Below, piece by piece: positions 2,181 to 44,782 of a stretch of DNA of 64,000 nt. The position numbers and the translations under genes are program-made. The stretch covers positions 1,065,001-1,129,000 of the forward strand of contig NZ_CP040710.1 of NCBI RefSeq assembly GCF_005943945.1, written 5' to 3'. This DNA is from Aggregatimonas sangjinii (GTDB taxonomy: Bacteria > Bacteroidota > Bacteroidia > Flavobacteriales > Flavobacteriaceae). Position 1 is the stretch's first letter. Each line of letters begins with the position of its first letter. The notes below the pieces were generated by a model. That model was not told the DNA's origin, ran no database searches, and was given only the letters and a program-made list of their open reading frames with translations.

Positions 2181-4277
2181 ATGAAAACAAAAAAAAATTA
2201 TCCAACTAAAATAATAACACCTTTGCTTTCCGGAGCGTTAAGGAAATATGGCCTGAGCTTCTTACTGGGCGCTTGCCTAGTCTTTATGCTACTTTTGGCG
2301 AGTTCATGTGATAACGAAGACGTTCTTGACCTCGATGAAACCGCTATGACCAACGACGATATCGTTACGTGTACCGATGGTATTATGAACGGGGACGAGA
2401 CAGGTATTGATTGTGGCGGCGCCTGTACGCCTTGTGAGGCGGGAGAAGAACTTGGTCGTCGGGCAGAGTTGTATGTAACCAACAATGCCAATGGGGATAT
2501 TTCGCGGTACAGTGTAACGGGAGATTCTCTTACTACCTTTACAACGGCTTCTACCGCTGCGGAGGGTATTTACTACAGTTCAAAAGATGGTGTCCTAGTT
2601 CAGGCATCCCGTTCTGGATTGCAGCTTGATGCGTATTCGGGAATTGCCGGTATAATGGAAGACTCGGCGCTCGATGCCTCGTTTAGTAGTACCACAGATT
2701 TAGAAAGTCCAAGGGAGTTGGCAGTAAATGGCGATATGTATGTGGTATCGGATAACGGCTCCAACAAGTTTTTTGTGTACACCAAAAATGGGGATAGTTT
2801 TTCCTTGACGAGTACTGTTGAGATTCCTTTTCCGGTTTGGGGCATTACCTTTAGGGGGAGTGATCTTTATGCCGTGGTCGACAATTCAAGTGATTTGGCG
2901 GTATTCAATAATTTTCAGGCATCGATATCTGCGCCGGTTTGCGCACTTAACCCTTCTAAAAGAGTAGTTATAGAAGGTATCGTACGCACGCACGGATTGG
3001 TTTATAACGCTGCGGACGACATTATGATTATGACCGATATTGGCGATGCGGCCAATACCACCGATGATGGTGCCTTTCATGTAATTTCTGAATTCGCTGC
3101 TACATTTGATTTATTGTCGGATGGCGAGGTTTATCCCTTAAGTAGACAAGTAAGGGTGGCGGGACCATCAACAATGATGGGCAACCCTATCGATGTGGCC
3201 TATGATTCCGAAGAAAATGCAGTCTATATTTCCGAAGTCGGAAATGGCAAAGTTCTAGGGTTTACCGCTCAAGGTGGTGGCGATCGGGCACCTTGGTTTG
3301 TCAAGGATTTACCGGCCGCTTCTTCCATTTATTTTTCAAGTGATGAAACCGATGATGATTTGGGGGAGGAAGCCATGGCCGGAAATACGGTTTTATACGC
3401 TACCAGCACGGCCAATGGTAATATTTATGTATACGATGCCATGGGCAATGCTCTAAAAACGGTTACCTCACAATCGGAATCTTCCGAAGGTATTTACTAC
3501 ACCGCTTTGGACGATATTTTGGTACAAGCCTCAAGGTCGGCATTGCAATTAGAGGGTTATGCAGAGTTTTCCACTGTTCCGGATGGTGCTATAGGAGCGG
3601 CTTCTTTTACGAGTTCCAAAGATTTAATGAGTCCGAGGGAAATCGCCGTCTACGGTAACAAAATTGTAGTGGCCGATAACGCCGAAAACATATTTTATGT
3701 GTATTCCCACGATATGTTTTCTTTCTCCTTGATCAATACCTTTAGATTCGAATGTCGTGGTATCTGGGGAATTACCTTTAAGGGTGATGATCTGTTGGCG
3801 GTAGTCGATAATACGGGCGATTTGGCTATTTTTAGTGACTTTTTTACCAATTATACGGTAGATGGGAACATTACTCCAGAGAAAATAATTACTATTCAAG
3901 GAATTGTAAGAACGCACGGAATCGACTACAGCGCAGCTGACGACCTATTGGTTATGACTGATATCGGGGACGCTGCCAATGGTACCGATGATGGAGGATT
4001 TCAGCTCATTCAAGAATTTAGCGCCAAACTTGACGCTATTTCTAATGGGGGAACATTGGTCCTTAGTGACCAGACAAGGGTCTCAGGACCAGGCACCATG
4101 ATGGGCAATCCTATTGATATCGCCTACGATAACGATAGCAAAACGGTGTATATCGCCGAAATAGGAAATGGAAAAATCCTAGGATTTTCCGATGTGCTCA
4201 ATGCAAGTGGAGATGTGGCACCAACATTTAATTGGGATTTAAATCAAGCTTCCTCTATATTCCTTTACAATAATTAA
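2181..4277 (+). CDS. Surface-exposed lipoprotein with two tandem propeller-like halves
   Basis: A 698-residue lipoprotein. The lipobox LASSC places the lipidated Cys at residue 43; the acidic DNED that follows resembles the Bacteroidetes lipoprotein export signal for surface exposure. Next comes a Cys-rich segment (TCTDGIMNGDETGIDCGG...CTPC) common in Bacteroidetes secreted proteins. The rest is an internal tandem duplication: residues about 92-375 and 405-695 repeat the same order of motifs (EGIYY, VQASRS, SPRE, WGITF, VRTHG, TDIGDAAN, MMGNPID, GNGK.LGF). The blades look like NHL or SMP-30-type beta-propeller repeats. No catalytic residues are evident; a binding role is inferred. Confidence 0.8.
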   Translation: MKTKKNYPTKIITPLLSGALRKYGLSFLLGACLVFMLLLASSCDNEDVLDLDETAMTNDDIVTCTDGIMNGDETGIDCGGACTPCEAGEELGRRAELYVTNNANGDISRYSVTGDSLTTFTTASTAAEGIYYSSKDGVLVQASRSGLQLDAYSGIAGIMEDSALDASFSSTTDLESPRELAVNGDMYVVSDNGSNKFFVYTKNGDSFSLTSTVEIPFPVWGITFRGSDLYAVVDNSSDLAVFNNFQASISAPVCALNPSKRVVIEGIVRTHGLVYNAADDIMIMTDIGDAANTTDDGAFHVISEFAATFDLLSDGEVYPLSRQVRVAGPSTMMGNPIDVAYDSEENAVYISEVGNGKVLGFTAQGGGDRAPWFVKDLPAASSIYFSSDETDDDLGEEAMAGNTVLYATSTANGNIYVYDAMGNALKTVTSQSESSEGIYYTALDDILVQASRSALQLEGYAEFSTVPDGAIGAASFTSSKDLMSPREIAVYGNKIVVADNAENIFYVYSHDMFSFSLINTFRFECRGIWGITFKGDDLLAVVDNTGDLAIFSDFFTNYTVDGNITPEKIITIQGIVRTHGIDYSAADDLLVMTDIGDAANGTDDGGFQLIQEFSAKLDAISNGGTLVLSDQTRVSGPGTMMGNPIDIAYDNDSKTVYIAEIGNGKILGFSDVLNASGDVAPTFNWDLNQASSIFLYNN

Positions 4278-34305: not shown

Positions 34306-35005
34306 ACCATTCAAGAACCTGTTTATCCCTAAAAAATTTACCTGTCATAATACCATCTTTCAATAAAGCTGTCCACACTATGGTTTCCGCACCTTTTTCA
34401 GGAGATCTATCCGCATTACCGCCACCCATATCGGTACGTACCCAACCAGGACAGACTGAGTTTACGAGAATCCCATCGTTTTTTAATTGATTCGCAAGGG
34501 CGAGTGTGATTCCGTTCAATCCTAATTTGGATAAACTATATCCTGGCGTACTACCATCTTGGCTGGCCAATGCGCCCGAACCACTGGATACATTGACAAT
34601 GCTTGCCCTATCGCTATTTCTGAGTAACGGAAGAAAGGTCTGCGTCATTTGCAGAGGTGCTATTGCATTTGTTTTGAATGTGGCAAGGACTTCATCTAGA
34701 TTGGCATTTTCAATGTTTTGGTGAGTATCATAATTAATACCTGCATTGTTAATGAGGATATCGAGTTTTCCGAATTCCGCTTTCGCGAAAGCGTAGCAAC
34801 TATTTATGCTCGCTTTATCCGTCACATCGAGCTGATGGTAAATCACCTTTCCATATTCAGAAAGCTTTTTTACCGCTTCGATTCCATCATCTTCCGAACG
34901 GCTGGTTACGATAACCGTAACGTCTTTTTTGAGCAATTCCTTGGCAACTGCAAAGCCGATACCTCGGTTTGCGCCGGTTACCAGAGCTATTTTATGATTC
35001 TTCAT
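34304..35005 (-). CDS. Short-chain dehydrogenase/reductase, carbonyl reductase-like
   Basis: A 233-residue classical SDR. The cofactor motif TGANRGIG is at about residues 10-17, NNAG at about 89, and catalytic Ser (SSGSG) and YSLSK follow; the substrate loop contains CPGWVRTDMGG. NADPH-dependent reduction of a carbonyl is likely. It is the last gene of the operon hydrolase-fusion/Tat-SDR/SDR. The palindrome CGCTTTCGCGAAAGCG lies inside it and is read as CYAFAKAEFGK, just before a strand that in most SDRs follows a variable helix. Confidence 0.92.
   Translation of the reverse strand: MKNHKIALVTGANRGIGFAVAKELLKKDVTVIVTSRSEDDGIEAVKKLSEYGKVIYHQLDVTDKASINSCYAFAKAEFGKLDILINNAGINYDTHQNIENANLDEVLATFKTNAIAPLQMTQTFLPLLRNSDRASIVNVSSGSGALASQDGSTPGYSLSKLGLNGITLALANQLKNDGILVNSVCPGWVRTDMGGGNADRSPEKGAETIVWTALLKDGIMTGKFFRDKQVLEW
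34778..34793. repeat. Iterated 16-bp palindrome, copy 1
   Basis: CGCTTTCGCGAAAGCG, perfect palindrome, inside the SDR gene; read on the coding strand as AFAKA. Confidence 0.9.
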
Positions 35006-40231: not shown

Positions 40232-41062
40232 TTAGTAAACCGCAGTTTGCGCTATTTCCTTGTTAGCTTCCAAATCATCTCGGACACTATCCAATTTCAT
40301 TCCAATGGTCATTAGTGCCACTTTACCAAGAGGAAGACGAAGCGATGGCTTTTCGGAATTCACCAAATCAATAATTGCTTTGGCAGCTTTTTCTGGGTCA
40401 CCCTCTTGTTTACCGTCTACGCCTTTGAGCTTGGCCCTAAAAGCACCGGCAGTTTCAGCGTAGTCATTGATTTCATTTTCAGCAAGGCCTAAACCGTCAC
40501 CGGCAAATTTCGTACGGAACGGACCTGGTTCGATAATGGAAACTTTTATGCCCAAAGGTGCGACTTCTTGCGCCAAAGCTTCGCTGAAACCTTCCAAGGC
40601 AAACTTACTTGCGTTATAGATTCCGAATCCCGCAAAAGCTTTAATACCACCGTGAGATGATATTTGAACGATTTGTCCATTTTTCTCTTCTCGCATATAC
40701 GGTAAAACGGTTTGGGTAAGTTTGAGCGTACCGAAAACATTCGCTTCAAAAACACGTCTTACTTCTTCCATCGAGGTTTCTTCTACCGCGCCTACAAAAC
40801 CGATGCCTGCATTGTTGACCAATACATCGATACGACCGTATTGTGTGATGATATCTCTGACGGTAGTTTCTATATTTTCTTCATTCGTAATATCCAGTAG
40901 AACAGAATGTGCTGTTGTGGCAAATTTCTTATTGAATTCTTCAACCTGAGATTGCTTCCGGAATGTTCCTACAACGAAGTCGCCAGTAGCCATTACAGAT
41001 TCAGCAAGTGCCTTACCCAATCCGCTTGATATTCCTGTGATAAACCATATTCTATTTTTCAT
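40232..41062 (-). CDS. Short-chain dehydrogenase/reductase
   Basis: A 276-residue classical SDR with TGISSGLG at residues 9-16, NNAG at about 87, catalytic Ser in QISSHGG and YNASK. The C-terminal half resembles 17-beta-hydroxysteroid-dehydrogenase-like and retinol dehydrogenase-like bacterial SDRs (EPGPFRTKFAG). It is the last gene of the peroxiredoxin-DoxX-SRPBCC-SDR operon and overlaps the preceding gene by 11 bp, showing tight coupling. Substrate unknown. Confidence 0.92.
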   Translation of the reverse strand: MKNRIWFITGISSGLGKALAESVMATGDFVVGTFRKQSQVEEFNKKFATTAHSVLLDITNEENIETTVRDIITQYGRIDVLVNNAGIGFVGAVEETSMEEVRRVFEANVFGTLKLTQTVLPYMREEKNGQIVQISSHGGIKAFAGFGIYNASKFALEGFSEALAQEVAPLGIKVSIIEPGPFRTKFAGDGLGLAENEINDYAETAGAFRAKLKGVDGKQEGDPEKAAKAIIDLVNSEKPSLRLPLGKVALMTIGMKLDSVRDDLEANKEIAQTAVY

Positions 41063-41558
41063 AATATTTATTTTTTACGTTACTTAAAAGTGTTCTTTGA
41101 AAGTTGTCGATTGTTGTTCGCATCTTCTCTTCGTTTGTCTTATCTGTTTTAAAGACTGCTTTAAAGCGAATCACAAATTCAGGACTATCTGTTTGCGTGA
41201 TGCTTATAGTCGCTTTATAATAGGATAGTGGCATCGGTGTTTCCAGCATCTCATACGAGATGACGCGTTTTTTATTATCAAGCTTTGTGATTTCCTCAAC
41301 GACCTTAGCACCATTTGCGTTTAAAGTCAATGTCACTATGGCACCTTTACCATTACCAATTCCCTCTGTCTCGCCTATGATTTCAGGAACCAGTTTGTCA
41401 AGATTTCCCAAATTGGAAATTGCTGTCCATACTTCATCCAAATCAGCATTCAGAACAATGTCGTTCTCAACCTTTACTTTGACCGTATTTTGGGCGTTCA
41501 GACTACACATCATCAATAGAAAAGAAAGAGTCAGAATTCCTGTTTTATATAAATCCAT
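41052..41558 (-). CDS. Secreted SRPBCC-fold (START/Bet v1-like) protein
   Basis: A 168-residue protein with a signal peptide (TGILTLSFLLMMCSLNAQ). The mature part has the SRPBCC pattern: ENDIVLNADLDEVWTAISNLGNLDKLVPEII at the N-terminus, ISYEMLETPMPLSYYKATISI in the middle, and a long C-terminal helix. The fold binds small hydrophobic ligands; export is uncommon. The gene overlaps its neighbours on both sides (14 and 11 bp) within the operon driven from 42636. Confidence 0.85.
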   Translation of the reverse strand: MDLYKTGILTLSFLLMMCSLNAQNTVKVKVENDIVLNADLDEVWTAISNLGNLDKLVPEIIGETEGIGNGKGAIVTLTLNANGAKVVEEITKLDNKKRVISYEMLETPMPLSYYKATISITQTDSPEFVIRFKAVFKTDKTNEEKMRTTIDNFQRTLLSNVKNKYYEK

Positions 41559-41931
41559 AAGTCATTGCTTTTTTGATGTTGTTGAACTGTAGGTAAGATA
41601 TAATCACGAAAAGAATTGTTGGTAGCAACCATATTCCGTTACCGATAAAGTCGTGGGCGATATGAAAGGCCATAATATTGAAAATCACCGGTAGTAATAC
41701 CAGCCAACCTATAAATCTAGTTTTGGGAATCAATAGCAGAATTCCGCCGGTAATTTCTGCAATAGCAACTATAATATAGAGATAGGATGTAAACATTGCA
41801 CCCATAAAACCTTGTGCTGTTGCATCGGCAGGTGGTTCTACTGGGATAAAACCGAAGAATTTATTAAGACCGAATATGATCATTAGTATAGCGAGTAGCC
41901 AGATGGCGATGTTTTGAATTGTATTTTTCAT
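41545..41931 (-). CDS. DoxX-like membrane protein
   Basis: A 128-residue protein with four predicted transmembrane helices (IAIWLLAILMIIFGLNKF; MFTSYLYIIVAIAEITGGILLLI; IGWLVLLPVIFNIMAFHIA; IWLLPTILFVIISYL). The first helix contains the GLNKF motif seen in DoxX-like proteins. The family often accompanies redox or thiol stress genes; here a peroxiredoxin gene lies 2 bp upstream. Precise activity unknown. Confidence 0.88.
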   Translation of the reverse strand: MKNTIQNIAIWLLAILMIIFGLNKFFGFIPVEPPADATAQGFMGAMFTSYLYIIVAIAEITGGILLLIPKTRFIGWLVLLPVIFNIMAFHIAHDFIGNGIWLLPTILFVIISYLQFNNIKKAMTYGFI

Positions 41932-41933
41932 CG

Positions 41934-42599
41934 TTATGATTTTAAAGAGTTAATGATTTCCGAGACTTCCACTCGGTTTCTATAGTCACCGCCTTCCGCT
42001 TTCGCGAAAGCGATAGTACCGTCTTGATTGATTACAAATACGGCAGGAAATGGTAATTCCCTAGAATCATCGGAATAATGGGCGTCGAAGTCAAAACCTA
42101 ATTCAGTCATCTTATCCACTGGTGCGTCACCATTTTTGAAAACAGTCGTATAATTTCTGGCGACGATGTTACCGTTATCGCTCAATACTTCAAATTTGAG
42201 CTCGTTCTTTTCCCTGATGCTCAAAGATTCATCTGGGGTTTGTGGCGAAATAGCAACCAATTTTGCACCTAAAGCGTGTATTTCATCTAAGGAATTTTGA
42301 TAATGTGCCAACTGTAGATTACAGTATGGACACCAGGTTCCCCTATAGAAAACCAACACCACTTTGTTCTTTTGTAATAACTTGGATAACGTGATAGTTT
42401 CATCAGATGCATTGGATAACGAAAAATCCGATGCTTTGTCACCAACTTCTACTTTCAATATAGATTGGTGTTCTTTTTGAAGGTTCTGGGCATCGTTGTC
42501 AAACACATCCAAAGCCTCTTTAGGAAGCATTTCACCCAAATTTCCTCTTAAATTAGTGAGGGCTTCTTGATAGGTAGGTAAACTTTCTTTAGTATTCAT
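41934..42599 (-). CDS. Peroxiredoxin-like AhpC/TSA family protein
   Basis: A 221-residue cytosolic thioredoxin-fold protein. The redox motif is YRGTWCPYCNLQ at about residue 88, with two cysteines separated by two residues, as in PrxQ-like or thiol-reductase-like relatives; the N-terminal KEHQSILKVEVGDKASDFSL is family-typical. It heads the operon with DoxX, SRPBCC and SDR genes. A Crp-type activator site lies 29.5 bp upstream of its -7 box, and the activator gene is next door. The palindrome CGCTTTCGCGAAAGCG is near its C-terminus (read IAFAKAEGGDY). Confidence 0.92.
   Translation of the reverse strand: MNTKESLPTYQEALTNLRGNLGEMLPKEALDVFDNDAQNLQKEHQSILKVEVGDKASDFSLSNASDETITLSKLLQKNKVVLVFYRGTWCPYCNLQLAHYQNSLDEIHALGAKLVAISPQTPDESLSIREKNELKFEVLSDNGNIVARNYTTVFKNGDAPVDKMTELGFDFDAHYSDDSRELPFPAVFVINQDGTIAFAKAEGGDYRNRVEVSEIINSLKS
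41997..42012. repeat. Iterated 16-bp palindrome, copy 4
   Basis: CGCTTTCGCGAAAGCG inside the peroxiredoxin gene; read as AFAKA. Confidence 0.9.
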
Positions 42600-42635
42600 T
42601 TTATGTACTTTATAGTTATGTCAATATTGACACTA

Positions 42636-42703
42636 CAAAGTTGCGACTGATGGGTCACTTTAAAAATGAACTAGATTAGGAAATAGTCTTGAACTAGATT
42701 AAG
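42636..42703 (-). promoter_or_regulatory. Crp-type activator sites and promoter of the peroxiredoxin operon
   Basis: Minus strand. A dyad-like 16-mer CTTGAACTAGATTAAG lies at 42688-42703 (overlapping the crp-like stop codon) and a close copy AATGAACTAGATTAGG at 42665-42680, centre 42672.5. The -7 box CAACTTTG (one mismatch to TAnnTTTG) starts at 42643, 29.5 bp from that centre. No -33 TTTG is present, as expected for an activator-dependent promoter. Confidence 0.7.
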
Positions 42704-43286
42704 ATTTTGAGGAAAGGTTCTTTCGGATTTTGGACATAAATTCGGGTGTCATACCCAAATAGGATGCAATTACTTTCTGCGGAACTCGACGGACAATGTT
42801 TGGGTAACGTTGTAAAAGTTCAAGGTATTTTTCTTCTGCCGTCATACTCAAATTGGACAGAGCACGCTTTCGTGAAAACGCGAACGCTTTTTCCGTAGAA
42901 ATTCTGAAATACTCGCTTAGGTTATGAATTTCTTTGCAAAGCCCTTCAATATCCTCATAGGTCATCTGAAAAATAATAGAGTCTTCTAGAGCCTCTACGT
43001 AAAGAGTAGCCGGAGTTTGAGTAATATAGCTATAGAAGTCGCTTACAAACCAATCTTCAATAGCGATTTGAACGGTATGCTCTTTGCCATCACCATCTAT
43101 AAAGTAAGAGCGGAAAGCACCTTTTACTACGTAGTTTCTGTAGTTGCAAACGTAACCAGGTTGGTCAATAAATTGCCGTTTTTTAATCTTGGTTGTACGA
43201 ATAATGCCAATTAATCGCTCTTTTTCTTCTTCGGAAAGAGTGACATATCGAGCGATATTTTGTAGTATATTATTGTATGTTTCCAA
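42699..43286 (-). CDS. Crp/Fnr family transcriptional regulator (first of two)
   Basis: A 195-residue protein with an N-terminal cyclic-nucleotide-binding-like beta barrel (QFIDQPGYVCNYRNYVVKGAFRSYFIDGDGKEHTVQIA) and a C-terminal winged helix (VPQKVIASYLGMTPEFMSKIRKNL). Phosphate-cassette residues of true cAMP binders are not evident. The only start in register is a TTG at 43286. It lies directly upstream of the peroxiredoxin operon; copies of its presumed site CTTGAACTAGATTAAG occur before that operon and, inverted, before its own gene. A degenerate form of the iterated palindrome (42865-42876) is read FSRKR. Confidence 0.9.
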   Translation of the reverse strand: METYNNILQNIARYVTLSEEEKERLIGIIRTTKIKKRQFIDQPGYVCNYRNYVVKGAFRSYFIDGDGKEHTVQIAIEDWFVSDFYSYITQTPATLYVEALEDSIIFQMTYEDIEGLCKEIHNLSEYFRISTEKAFAFSRKRALSNLSMTAEEKYLELLQRYPNIVRRVPQKVIASYLGMTPEFMSKIRKNLSSKS

Positions 43287-43325
43287 ATGGTCTAAGACGG
43301 ATATTATTGTTTTTTAAATTGACCA

Positions 43326-43370
43326 TAAAGATACATTTATCGAAAAACTTAAAACTTAATCTAGTTCAAG
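43326..43370 (-). promoter_or_regulatory. Autoregulatory Crp-type site and promoter of the first Crp/Fnr gene
   Basis: CTTAATCTAGTTCAAG at 43355-43370 is the exact reverse complement of the site at 42688-42703. Its centre (43362.5) is 29.5 bp upstream of a minus-strand box TATCTTTA starting at 43333 (one mismatch to TAnnTTTG). Confidence 0.65.
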
Positions 43371-43379
43371 AAACCCGTT

Positions 43380-43490
43380 CAGCCCATTCCCTTACATGTC
43401 TCGAAAAGCTACATTTAGGGAAAAGAACTTCACTATACAGGTTTTGGACACAATCCCCAATTTTGGCTTTCCATTCCCTTAATCCCTACA
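43380..43490 (+). repeat. Intergenic repeat, copy B
   Basis: Second copy, lacking the right-hand hairpin. It retains CAGCCCATTCCCTTACAT, GGGAAAAGAACTTCACT and TTGGACACAATCCCCAATTT. It sits between the divergent promoters of the two Crp/Fnr genes. Confidence 0.85.
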
Positions 43491-43500
43491 AACGATTTAT

Positions 43501-43545
43501 TGTGACTCAAATCACATCATACTCTCTTCAATTTCACTATTTTTA
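43501..43545 (+). promoter_or_regulatory. CRP-consensus site and promoter of the second Crp/Fnr gene
   Basis: TGTGA-CTCAAA-TCACA at 43501-43516 is a perfect match to the E. coli CRP consensus arms. Its centre (43508.5) is 29.5 bp upstream of TATTTTTA at 43538-43545 (one mismatch to TAnnTTTG). Position before the regulator gene suggests autoactivation. Confidence 0.7.
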
Positions 43546-43577
43546 TAGGTACACATTTTTAAACCCTACCGTAATAA

Positions 43578-44153
43578 TTGAAGGCAGAAAGTCAAATTCT
43601 TCGCAATACCTTAAATCAGTTCAATATACTGACAGATGACGAATTTGAGCAATTTCTTAATGTCACTGACCTTCAGCAATTCAAGAAAAAAGAATATCTA
43701 CTGCGCCAAGGCAATTATCATAGCGGATTGTTCTTTGTAATTGAGGGCGTAGTTGGTCTTTACGAGCTAATGAATGACAAGGAAGTGTATCTTGATTTCT
43801 TTCTTACTACCAGTTTTGCAACAGACCTTGAGAGCCTTACCTCACAGACGGTAGCCAGAAAAAACTTGGTGGCACTAGACGATTGTAAAACCTTCTTTTT
43901 ATCTCGTAAGGAGTTGCTAAAACTATATGACGTTTCCCCTGCATATGAACGTCTCGGGAGAAAAATGCTCGAGCATATAGTAACCCAACAACGCAAACTC
44001 ACCTCGGTAATAAAAACGCTGTCACCTAAAGAGCAATACGAGTACATAGAAAATAATAGGCCAGAATTACTTCAAATGGTCTCTCTTTCTCATCTAGCAT
44101 CCTATCTCGGTTTGGCACGCGAAACCTTGAGCCGAATTCGAGCCAAAGGATAA
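43578..44153 (+). CDS. Crp/Fnr family transcriptional regulator (second of two)
   Basis: A 191-residue regulator with an N-terminal cyclic-nucleotide-binding-like domain (EQFLNVTDLQQFKKKEYLLRQGNYHSGLFFVIEGVVGLYEL) and a C-terminal helix-turn-helix (LSHLASYLGLARETLSRIRAKG). The recognition helix RETLSR has the same Arg-Glu...Arg pattern as E. coli CRP, matching the TGTGA-N6-TCACA sites found before this gene and before the next. No ATG is available; a TTG at 43578 is the only start in register after an in-frame stop. Confidence 0.9.
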   Translation: MKAESQILRNTLNQFNILTDDEFEQFLNVTDLQQFKKKEYLLRQGNYHSGLFFVIEGVVGLYELMNDKEVYLDFFLTTSFATDLESLTSQTVARKNLVALDDCKTFFLSRKELLKLYDVSPAYERLGRKMLEHIVTQQRKLTSVIKTLSPKEQYEYIENNRPELLQMVSLSHLASYLGLARETLSRIRAKG

Positions 44154-44178
44154 ACCTTCTCCTTCTCCCATAGCATTA

Positions 44179-44223
44179 TGTGATTTCAATCACACTTTTT
44201 CGCCTTTATAAAAAATAAATTTG
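44179..44223 (+). promoter_or_regulatory. CRP-consensus site and promoter of the SnoaL-like lipoprotein gene
   Basis: TGTGA-TTTCAA-TCACA at 44179-44194 (centre 44186.5) is 29.5 bp upstream of an exact TAnnTTTG box, TAAATTTG, at 44216-44223. The lipoprotein gene starts 27 bp later. Confidence 0.75.
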
Positions 44224-44249
44224 TGCTTGTAATCTAAAAACATATTGAG

Positions 44250-44702
44250 ATGAAAAAAATCACATCAATGCTCGTTGCCATTCTATGCCTGAGCGTAATA
44301 AGTTGTAAATCACAAAACACAAAAAATGACCCAGCTATGGAAAAAGAAATTAAAGATGTAGTTATCGCTTTCGCGAAAGCGGGAGAAGAAAGAAATATAG
44401 CTGCTTACGACGAACTCTTCCACGAAGATTTTAGGGTGATTGCCAACCGATATCCAACGCCGGACAAAACCTCTATAATACCAGCAGCCGGATACATCGC
44501 ACTTATTACCAAAGGAGTAATAGGCGGAAATAAACTTGAAGTAAAATTTAACGATATAGCTATTGCAGAACACTCGGCTACCGTGCGTGCACATTTTAAG
44601 GATGAGAACGGTGGTGGACAATTAGTGACCATATTATTAGTGAAAAATCAAGAGGACAAATGGCAGATGATTGCTGATATGGCTACTCAAATCAAAAAGT
44701 GA
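44250..44702 (+). CDS. SnoaL/NTF2-like lipoprotein
   Basis: A 150-residue lipoprotein with lipobox VISC (Cys19). The mature domain is NTF2-like: EIKDVVIAFAKAGEERNIAAYDELFHEDFRVIANRYPTPDK, then strands ending LVKNQEDKWQMIADMATQIKK. Such folds serve as ligand pockets or small isomerases/hydrolases; no catalytic dyad can be assigned. It follows the second Crp/Fnr regulator and has its own CRP-type site. The palindrome CGCTTTCGCGAAAGCG is read as AFAKA within helix one. Its TGA overlaps the ATG of a signal-peptide-only ORF. Confidence 0.82.
   Translation: MKKITSMLVAILCLSVISCKSQNTKNDPAMEKEIKDVVIAFAKAGEERNIAAYDELFHEDFRVIANRYPTPDKTSIIPAAGYIALITKGVIGGNKLEVKFNDIAIAEHSATVRAHFKDENGGGQLVTILLVKNQEDKWQMIADMATQIKK
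44366..44381. repeat. Iterated 16-bp palindrome, copy 5
   Basis: CGCTTTCGCGAAAGCG inside the SnoaL-like lipoprotein gene; read as AFAKA. Confidence 0.9.
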
Positions 44703-44782
44703 TGAACTTATTTTCGAAATGTATAGTGCTCATAGCATTAATCGCTACATCTATGGCAAACGGACAAAAACTTAAAAATTAA
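44702..44782 (+). pseudogene. Signal-peptide-only ORF, 26 aa (probable truncated secreted protein)
   Basis: The ATG overlaps the preceding TGA by one base (TGATG). The product is MNLFSKCIVLIALIATSMANGQKLKN, a complete signal peptide with a cleavage-like site after NGQ and then a stop after five residues. It looks like the remnant of a secreted-protein gene deleted just after its signal sequence, or a free hydrophobic peptide. Confidence 0.5.

Follow-up and report, generated by a model that had tools for sequence, protein, structure and literature searches.

At class II promoters of Escherichia coli the Crp dimer is centered at -41.5, where it overlaps the -35 region, and class III promoters hold more than one Crp dimer (PMC5957442). 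Whether a Crp/Fnr half-site reads GTGA or TTGA follows residue 180 of the recognition helix, the R180-G3 correlation (PMC1274295), and the same paper describes the HcpR2-hcp modules of Bacteroides and other anaerobes, in which a local Crp/Fnr regulator lies beside its target and the motif follows residues 180 and 181. A further member of the Crp family in the Bacteroidota, BT4338 (Crp) of Bacteroides, has a palindromic site and predicted autoregulation (PMC3878776). Mapped transcription starts of F. psychrophilum place the motif TAnnTTTG at -12 to -5 (PMC9723704).

Here we describe a locus of Aggregatimonas sangjinii (assembly GCF_005943945.1; genome of 4.72 Mb) with two such regulators. The whole stretch of DNA analyzed, hereafter the window, is 64,000 nucleotides long (NZ_CP040710.1, positions 1,065,001-1,129,000 of the forward strand), and coordinates refer to it. 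A sequence-only reading had proposed that four promoters of the locus share a dyad centered 29.5 bp upstream of the first base of a TAnnTTTG-like box. The comparisons below indicate that two local Crp/Fnr activators very probably use the four sites as operators and would work in the class II manner on Bacteroidota sigma-A promoters.

Two Crp/Fnr regulators and their neighbors

The two regulator genes, each with a probable TTG start, are crp1 (42699..43286, minus strand; recognition helix PEFMSK; PF00027, 31.2 bits) and crp2 (43578..44153, plus strand; recognition helix RETLSR; PF00027, 43.2 bits). Both products belong to the Crp/Fnr superfamily, scoring above the PF00027 cut-off, carrying a C-terminal helix-turn-helix and having 3dn7_A as the best match among solved chains over nearly their full length (E of 3.7e-39 for crp1 and 1.3e-12 for crp2, which also matched 5dyk_A weakly). 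The recognition helices were placed by alignment, and no HTH model was matched in the domain searches. Neither protein is assigned to the two best known members of the superfamily, crp2 reaching 31.7 bits against the cut-off of 266 for the CRP equivalog (NCBIfam PRK11753) and crp1 22.6 bits against 228 for the FNR oxygen sensor (NCBIfam PRK11161).

Downstream of crp1 lies the prx operon (40232..42599, minus strand), with genes for an AhpC/TSA peroxiredoxin (41934-42599), a DoxX/MauE-like protein (41545-41931), a polyketide-cyclase-like protein (41052-41558) and an SDR protein (40232-41062), all on the minus strand. Downstream of crp2 lies snoaL (44250..44702, plus strand), which encodes a lipoprotein, its leader read by eye, with a DUF4440 (SnoaL-like) domain (PF14534, 29.0 bits) and which is likely to be a target of crp2.

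The palindrome GCTTTCGCGAAAGC occurs seven times in the genome, and five of the copies are in the window (at 34779, 37374, 39661, 41998 and 44367), spaced by about 2.3-2.6 kb in a stretch of lower GC content (0.38-0.41 at 28-48 kb compared with 0.42-0.45 elsewhere in the window). It is present in 53 of 249 genomes of the family, four of which carry 408-857 copies. This low-GC stretch, the locus included, is likely an island that was acquired from some lineage rich in the palindrome.

Four operator-box pairs

All four sites and all four boxes were confirmed where the sequence-only reading had placed them, with 29.5 bp between dyad center and first box base in each pair. On the plus strand, the crp2 self-operator TGTGACTCAAATCACA (43501..43516) precedes the -7 box TATTTTTA (43538..43545; predicted start near 43550), and the snoaL operator TGTGATTTCAATCACA (44179..44194) precedes the -7 box TAAATTTG (44216..44223; predicted start near 44228). 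On the minus strand, the crp1 self-operator, which reads CTTGAACTAGATTAAG on that strand (43355..43370), is paired with the -7 box TATCTTTA (43326..43333; predicted start near 43321). For the prx operon (-7 box CAACTTTG, 42636..42643, minus strand; predicted start near 42631), the proposed site is indeed present at 29.5 bp, but it is the degenerate member of a tandem whose second operator, 23 bp upstream, had been overlooked. The proximal operator (42665..42680, minus strand), predicted to lie at -41.5, is a degenerate dyad with 4 of 8 pairs; the distal one (42688..42703, minus strand) reproduces the crp1 operator exactly, in reverse, stands 52.5 bp from the box and lies partly within crp1, at its 3' end.

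If the box occupies -12 to -5, its mapped position in F. psychrophilum, a spacing of 29.5 bp puts the dyad center at -41.5 from the predicted start, close to the -42 originally suggested and in class II geometry. No TTTG, the only string scanned for, stands at -33 in any of the four promoters, so that a separate -35/-33 element is absent by this check and the operator covers its place, as at class II promoters. As a line of evidence in its own right, TTTG at -33 was discarded as uninformative.

The genome has two TGTGAN6TCACA sites, both at the crp2/snoaL locus. Given the base composition of the intergenic DNA nearby, a box with 5 or 6 of its 6 defined bases arises at a given place with p = 0.017, and four of four at a single offset with a chance of ~9e-8, or ~3e-6 over 31 offsets, values obtained for boxes that were all chosen by eye and post hoc and three of which depart from TAnnTTTG by one base. 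Independent replications therefore weigh more than the p-value of the window.

Conservation of the promoters in relatives

In three relatives crp2 is likewise followed by snoaL (L045, 81% identity; L046, 66%; L016, 57%), and the GTGAN6TCAC operator is retained at both the crp2 and the snoaL promoter in all three. The spacing, too, is conserved among these orthologous promoters, seven of the eight, the window included, matching the box at 29.5 in 5 or 6 of its 6 bases. In the eighth, that of L016 crp2, the box at 29.5 has 4 of 6 bases and is equalled at other offsets; L046 crp2 has a 6/6 box at 41.5. Summed over the eight promoters of the four species, the box score is 43 at 29.5 and 24 at the runner-up offset. 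In L045 an AhpC/TSA gene follows snoaL (3579-4223, assigned by Pfam), and a short remnant at 44703-44782 of the window resembles its start by eye, so a gene of the crp2 target operon has apparently been lost in the window.

The crp1-prx arrangement recurs as well. TTGAACTAGATTAA has exactly three copies in the genome: in the crp1 promoter, at the end of crp1 before prx and at the end of a duplicate crp1 before a duplicate prx. The tandem at 29.5 and 52.5 is found after the duplicate crp1 (L079) and after the crp1 homologues of L108 and L110, and L111 has a single site, at 29.5; the box reads CAnnTTTG in five of five prx promoters (the window, L079, L108, L110 and L111). No counterpart of the crp1 self-operator was found upstream of the two nearest crp1 homologues, L108 and L079. 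The second crp1-prx module (L079, at 3665.8 kb of the genome) adjoins an IS110-type transposase gene, and its DoxX-like frame appears by eye to be interrupted. The perfect palindrome TTGAACNNGTTCAA was rejected as the crp1 site: it has 12 matches in 249 genomes (box at 29.5 in three and at 30.5 in three) and none in the genome of A. sangjinii itself, since the crp1 sites carry one divergent half.

Spacing of sites and boxes in other genomes

When 249 genomes of the family were scanned for exact TAnnTTTG after TGTGAN6TCACA, with 31 spacings allowed, 34 of 54 pairs fell at 29.5, three at 28.5, two at 30.5 and at most two in any other bin. A scan of 345 genomes of the class gave 68 matches; six came from the family and had been counted, and among the 62 from outside it 24 were at 29.5, seven at 30.5 (four from one family by table count), three at 28.5 and at most five in any other bin. 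A control palindrome of equal composition had seven matches in the 249 genomes, against 54, with one at 29.5.

For the FNR-type site TTGATN4ATCAA, 17 of the 150 matches listed were at 29.5, the other bins having a mean of 4.4; the 33.5 bin held 14 of the 150 listed, six of them sharing one string that resembles coding sequence. TGTGACN4GTCACA-like sites at 29.5 in family genomes (L047-L075) precede metallo-beta-lactamase and rhodanese genes at nine of the 18 loci listed, by eye, and also flavin oxidoreductase and OsmC genes, with Pfam assignments made for four examples; these sites possibly form a sulfur-stress regulon of another Crp/Fnr protein.

The by-eye choice of boxes and the one-base departure in three of them had left room for mere coincidence, with weak boxes selected after the fact. 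We consider this extremely improbable, as scans with the exact box recover the same spacing, the control palindrome does not, and a test that assumes no motif (below) contradicts it too. The spacing might alternatively be an inherited trait, a few ancestral regulator-target promoters having spread by descent or transfer although function does not demand 29.5. Among the 34 family matches some do look orthologous, seven of them falling in one cluster, the 62 class-wide matches were counted without collapsing for relatedness, and the locus itself is in a likely imported island; yet clustering the 34 matches at 70% identity of their free positions leaves 25 groups, the 24 matches from elsewhere in the class are spread over 15 families by table count, and strong dyads at 29.5 or 30.5 accompany 20 helix types in the motif-free test. 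We judge inheritance to be a very unlikely account. After the clustering, class scan, control palindrome and motif-free test, chance and common descent were both set aside as the sole explanation.

Dyads around Crp/Fnr genes

Enrichment near crp/fnr genes, another expectation of the sequence-only reading, was assessed at 167 distinct genes, chosen not at random but as those most similar to crp1 and crp2 together with the crp/fnr genes of the same genome. For the first NAnnTTTG after the stop codon, present at 130 of the 167 loci, DNA symmetry was scored at each distance with no motif assumed. A strong dyad (at least 6 of 8 pairs) stood at 29.5 from 51 of the 130 boxes, at 30.5 from eight, at 52.5 from 30 and at 75.5 from five; the remaining bins, that at 75.5 included, had a mean of 1.0 and a maximum of five. 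Mean symmetry was 4.36/8 at 29.5, compared with 2.27 elsewhere and 2.07 for control boxes. Strict NTGAN6TCAN dyads near the 3' ends of the regulator genes (51 in 49 loci) gave the same picture, with a box at 29.5 for 30 of them, at 30.5 for six, at 52.5 for ten, at 75.5 for three and 0.39 per other bin. The first base of these dyads falls anywhere from 1 base ahead of the stop codon to 71 bases past it, and no comparable spacing peak was seen in the reverse direction near regulator 3' ends.

The site also matches the regulator, as had been claimed. All 24 dyads of regulators with an arginine at helix position 1 had GTGA, and 34 of the 38 dyads of regulators with any other residue there had TTGA, the base outside TGA in the latter set being T in 34, A in three and G in one, a lone case that is the crp2 site viewed from crp1 in their shared gap. 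The RETLSR helix of crp2, with Arg-Glu...Arg, is paired with GTGAN6TCAC, the CRP-type recognition predicted from its sequence. L026 mirrors the window, two neighboring regulators with RETLSR and QETLSR being matched to GTGA and TTGA, respectively. By eye, PEYLSE regulators have recurrent CTTAAGATACCTTAAG-like sites and KEFLSK regulators recurrent TTAAnCTAGnTTAA-like sites just past the stop codon, motifs that are possibly an extension of the recognition code.

The peak at 52.5 reflects a tandem with 23-bp spacing, which crp1-like and KEFLSK regulators show as well as the Arg group. KEFLSK regulators have the distal dyad, as defined here, in 17 of 20 cases, all 17 with a box at 52.5 and two also with one at 43.5. 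In the Arg group a box stands at 52.5 from nine of 20 dyads, and a second site 23 bp downstream scores a mean of 4.45/8 bases compared with 2.01 over all offsets; GTGAN6TCAC dyads that lack a box at 29.5 had seemed to be exceptions, an impression that the weaker site 23 bp downstream removed. For the 31 other strict dyads, 23 was not among the top offsets. One group does depart from 29.5: PQALSR regulators (n = 7) peak at 30.5, with a mean symmetry of 4.86/8 against 0.43 at 29.5.

Upstream of the regulator genes the 29.5 bin was not clearly enriched (four of 197 boxes; mean 1.9, maximum six), the four cases including crp1 and crp2 of the window and L046 crp2. A general rule of self-activation found no support in this comparison. 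The two self-promoters of the window are atypical, operators typically lying after the regulator stop codon and before the next gene.

Discussion

The claim that 29.5 bp is the working spacing for Crp/Fnr regulators at Bacteroidota promoters holds in that this spacing dominates among orthologues, in the genome scans relative to the control and in the symmetry test. It needs narrowing in two respects: the spacing is not universal, as the PQALSR group shows, and it applies where the promoter belongs to the gene that follows the regulator, self-promoters showing no clear enrichment. The sites, their spacing and conservation, the helix-site correspondence and the layout can be read directly from the DNA; the start sites, protein binding and activation by it we infer.

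In the proposed mechanism a dimer centered at -41.5 would replace the -35/-33 element and contact RNA polymerase. Crp2 (RETLSR) would read GTGAN6TCAC and drive snoaL and its own gene. Crp1 (PEFMSK) would read TTRAnCTAGTTCAA-like sites, driving the prx operon from the tandem at -41.5 and -64.5 and its own gene from one site, and the good distal site of the 23-bp tandem may help to fill the degenerate proximal site. The target would be the gene directly after the regulator stop codon, in a layout that recurs at many of the Crp/Fnr genes surveyed in flavobacteria. Because a peroxiredoxin is among the putative targets, the signal is perhaps oxidative or redox stress.

The dyads could also be repressor sites, with dimers that block polymerase at the -35 region. 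A protein over -41.5 would be able to hinder polymerase too, and the evidence concerns sequence, not expression. A spacing of single-base-pair precision that recurs in many helix classes and site types, together with a second peak exactly 23 bp upstream, nevertheless argues for a protein contact, and TTTG is missing at -33 in all four promoters. Steric repression would tolerate many positions, so that the fixed spacing better fits contact with polymerase, and we regard repression as unlikely and retain class II activation as the preferred reading. Whether the layout amounts to a plug-in design we consider an evenly balanced question. In such a design the 3' end of a Crp/Fnr gene, or the bases just after it, would carry the operator at -41.5 of the next gene, often in a 23-bp ladder (-41.5, -64.5 and sometimes -87.5) whose good distal site would load a second dimer onto a degenerate proximal site, the latter alone touching polymerase. 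Regulator, site and target would then form a single transferable cassette, and helix-site rules would become readable for hundreds of orphan regulators.

Bacteroidota promoters differ from those of E. coli, and the fixed spacing suggests how Crp/Fnr switches may fit them. A search rule follows (a site, 21-22 bases, TAnnTTTG, the next gene) that would yield operators and first targets for uncharacterized Crp/Fnr regulators, and promoters of the crp2-snoaL and crp1-prx types are ready test promoters for activation in Bacteroidota.

Both class II activation and the recognition code of the helix were already known, the latter since 2005 (PMC1274295), the present data adding many more pairs to it. 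In the literature searched, which left most subscription journals outside its coverage, no statement was recognized of how far Crp/Fnr sites stand from the -7 box in Bacteroidota, and this weakly suggests that the spacing on these promoters is new. Nor did that literature, which was not queried for them by name, give an account of 23-bp tandems or of an operator at the regulator 3' end as a general layout.

Like the locus described here, the HcpR2-hcp modules join a local regulator to its target, but their motif is GTAACnnnnGTTAC, and the accessible text of PMC1274295 gives no promoter spacing for them. BT4338 shares the family, the phylum and a palindromic site with the regulators of the window; it differs in being a global sugar regulator with a 22-bp palindrome, for which the accessible text of PMC3878776 gives no spacing to a -7 box. 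E. coli class III promoters also hold more than one dimer, with the upstream site near -93.5 (PMC5957442), whereas here it would be at -64.5, separated by 23 bp from the proximal site, and a third site may exist further up. The closest likeness in geometry is to the class II promoters of E. coli CRP and FNR, where the dyad is likewise at -41.5 and residue 180 sets GTGA or TTGA (PMC5957442 and PMC1274295). The present promoters differ from these in their TAnnTTTG -7 box, in regulators whose scores fall well short of the cut-offs of the CRP and FNR models, in a target placed directly after the regulator gene and in operators repeated in 23-bp tandems.
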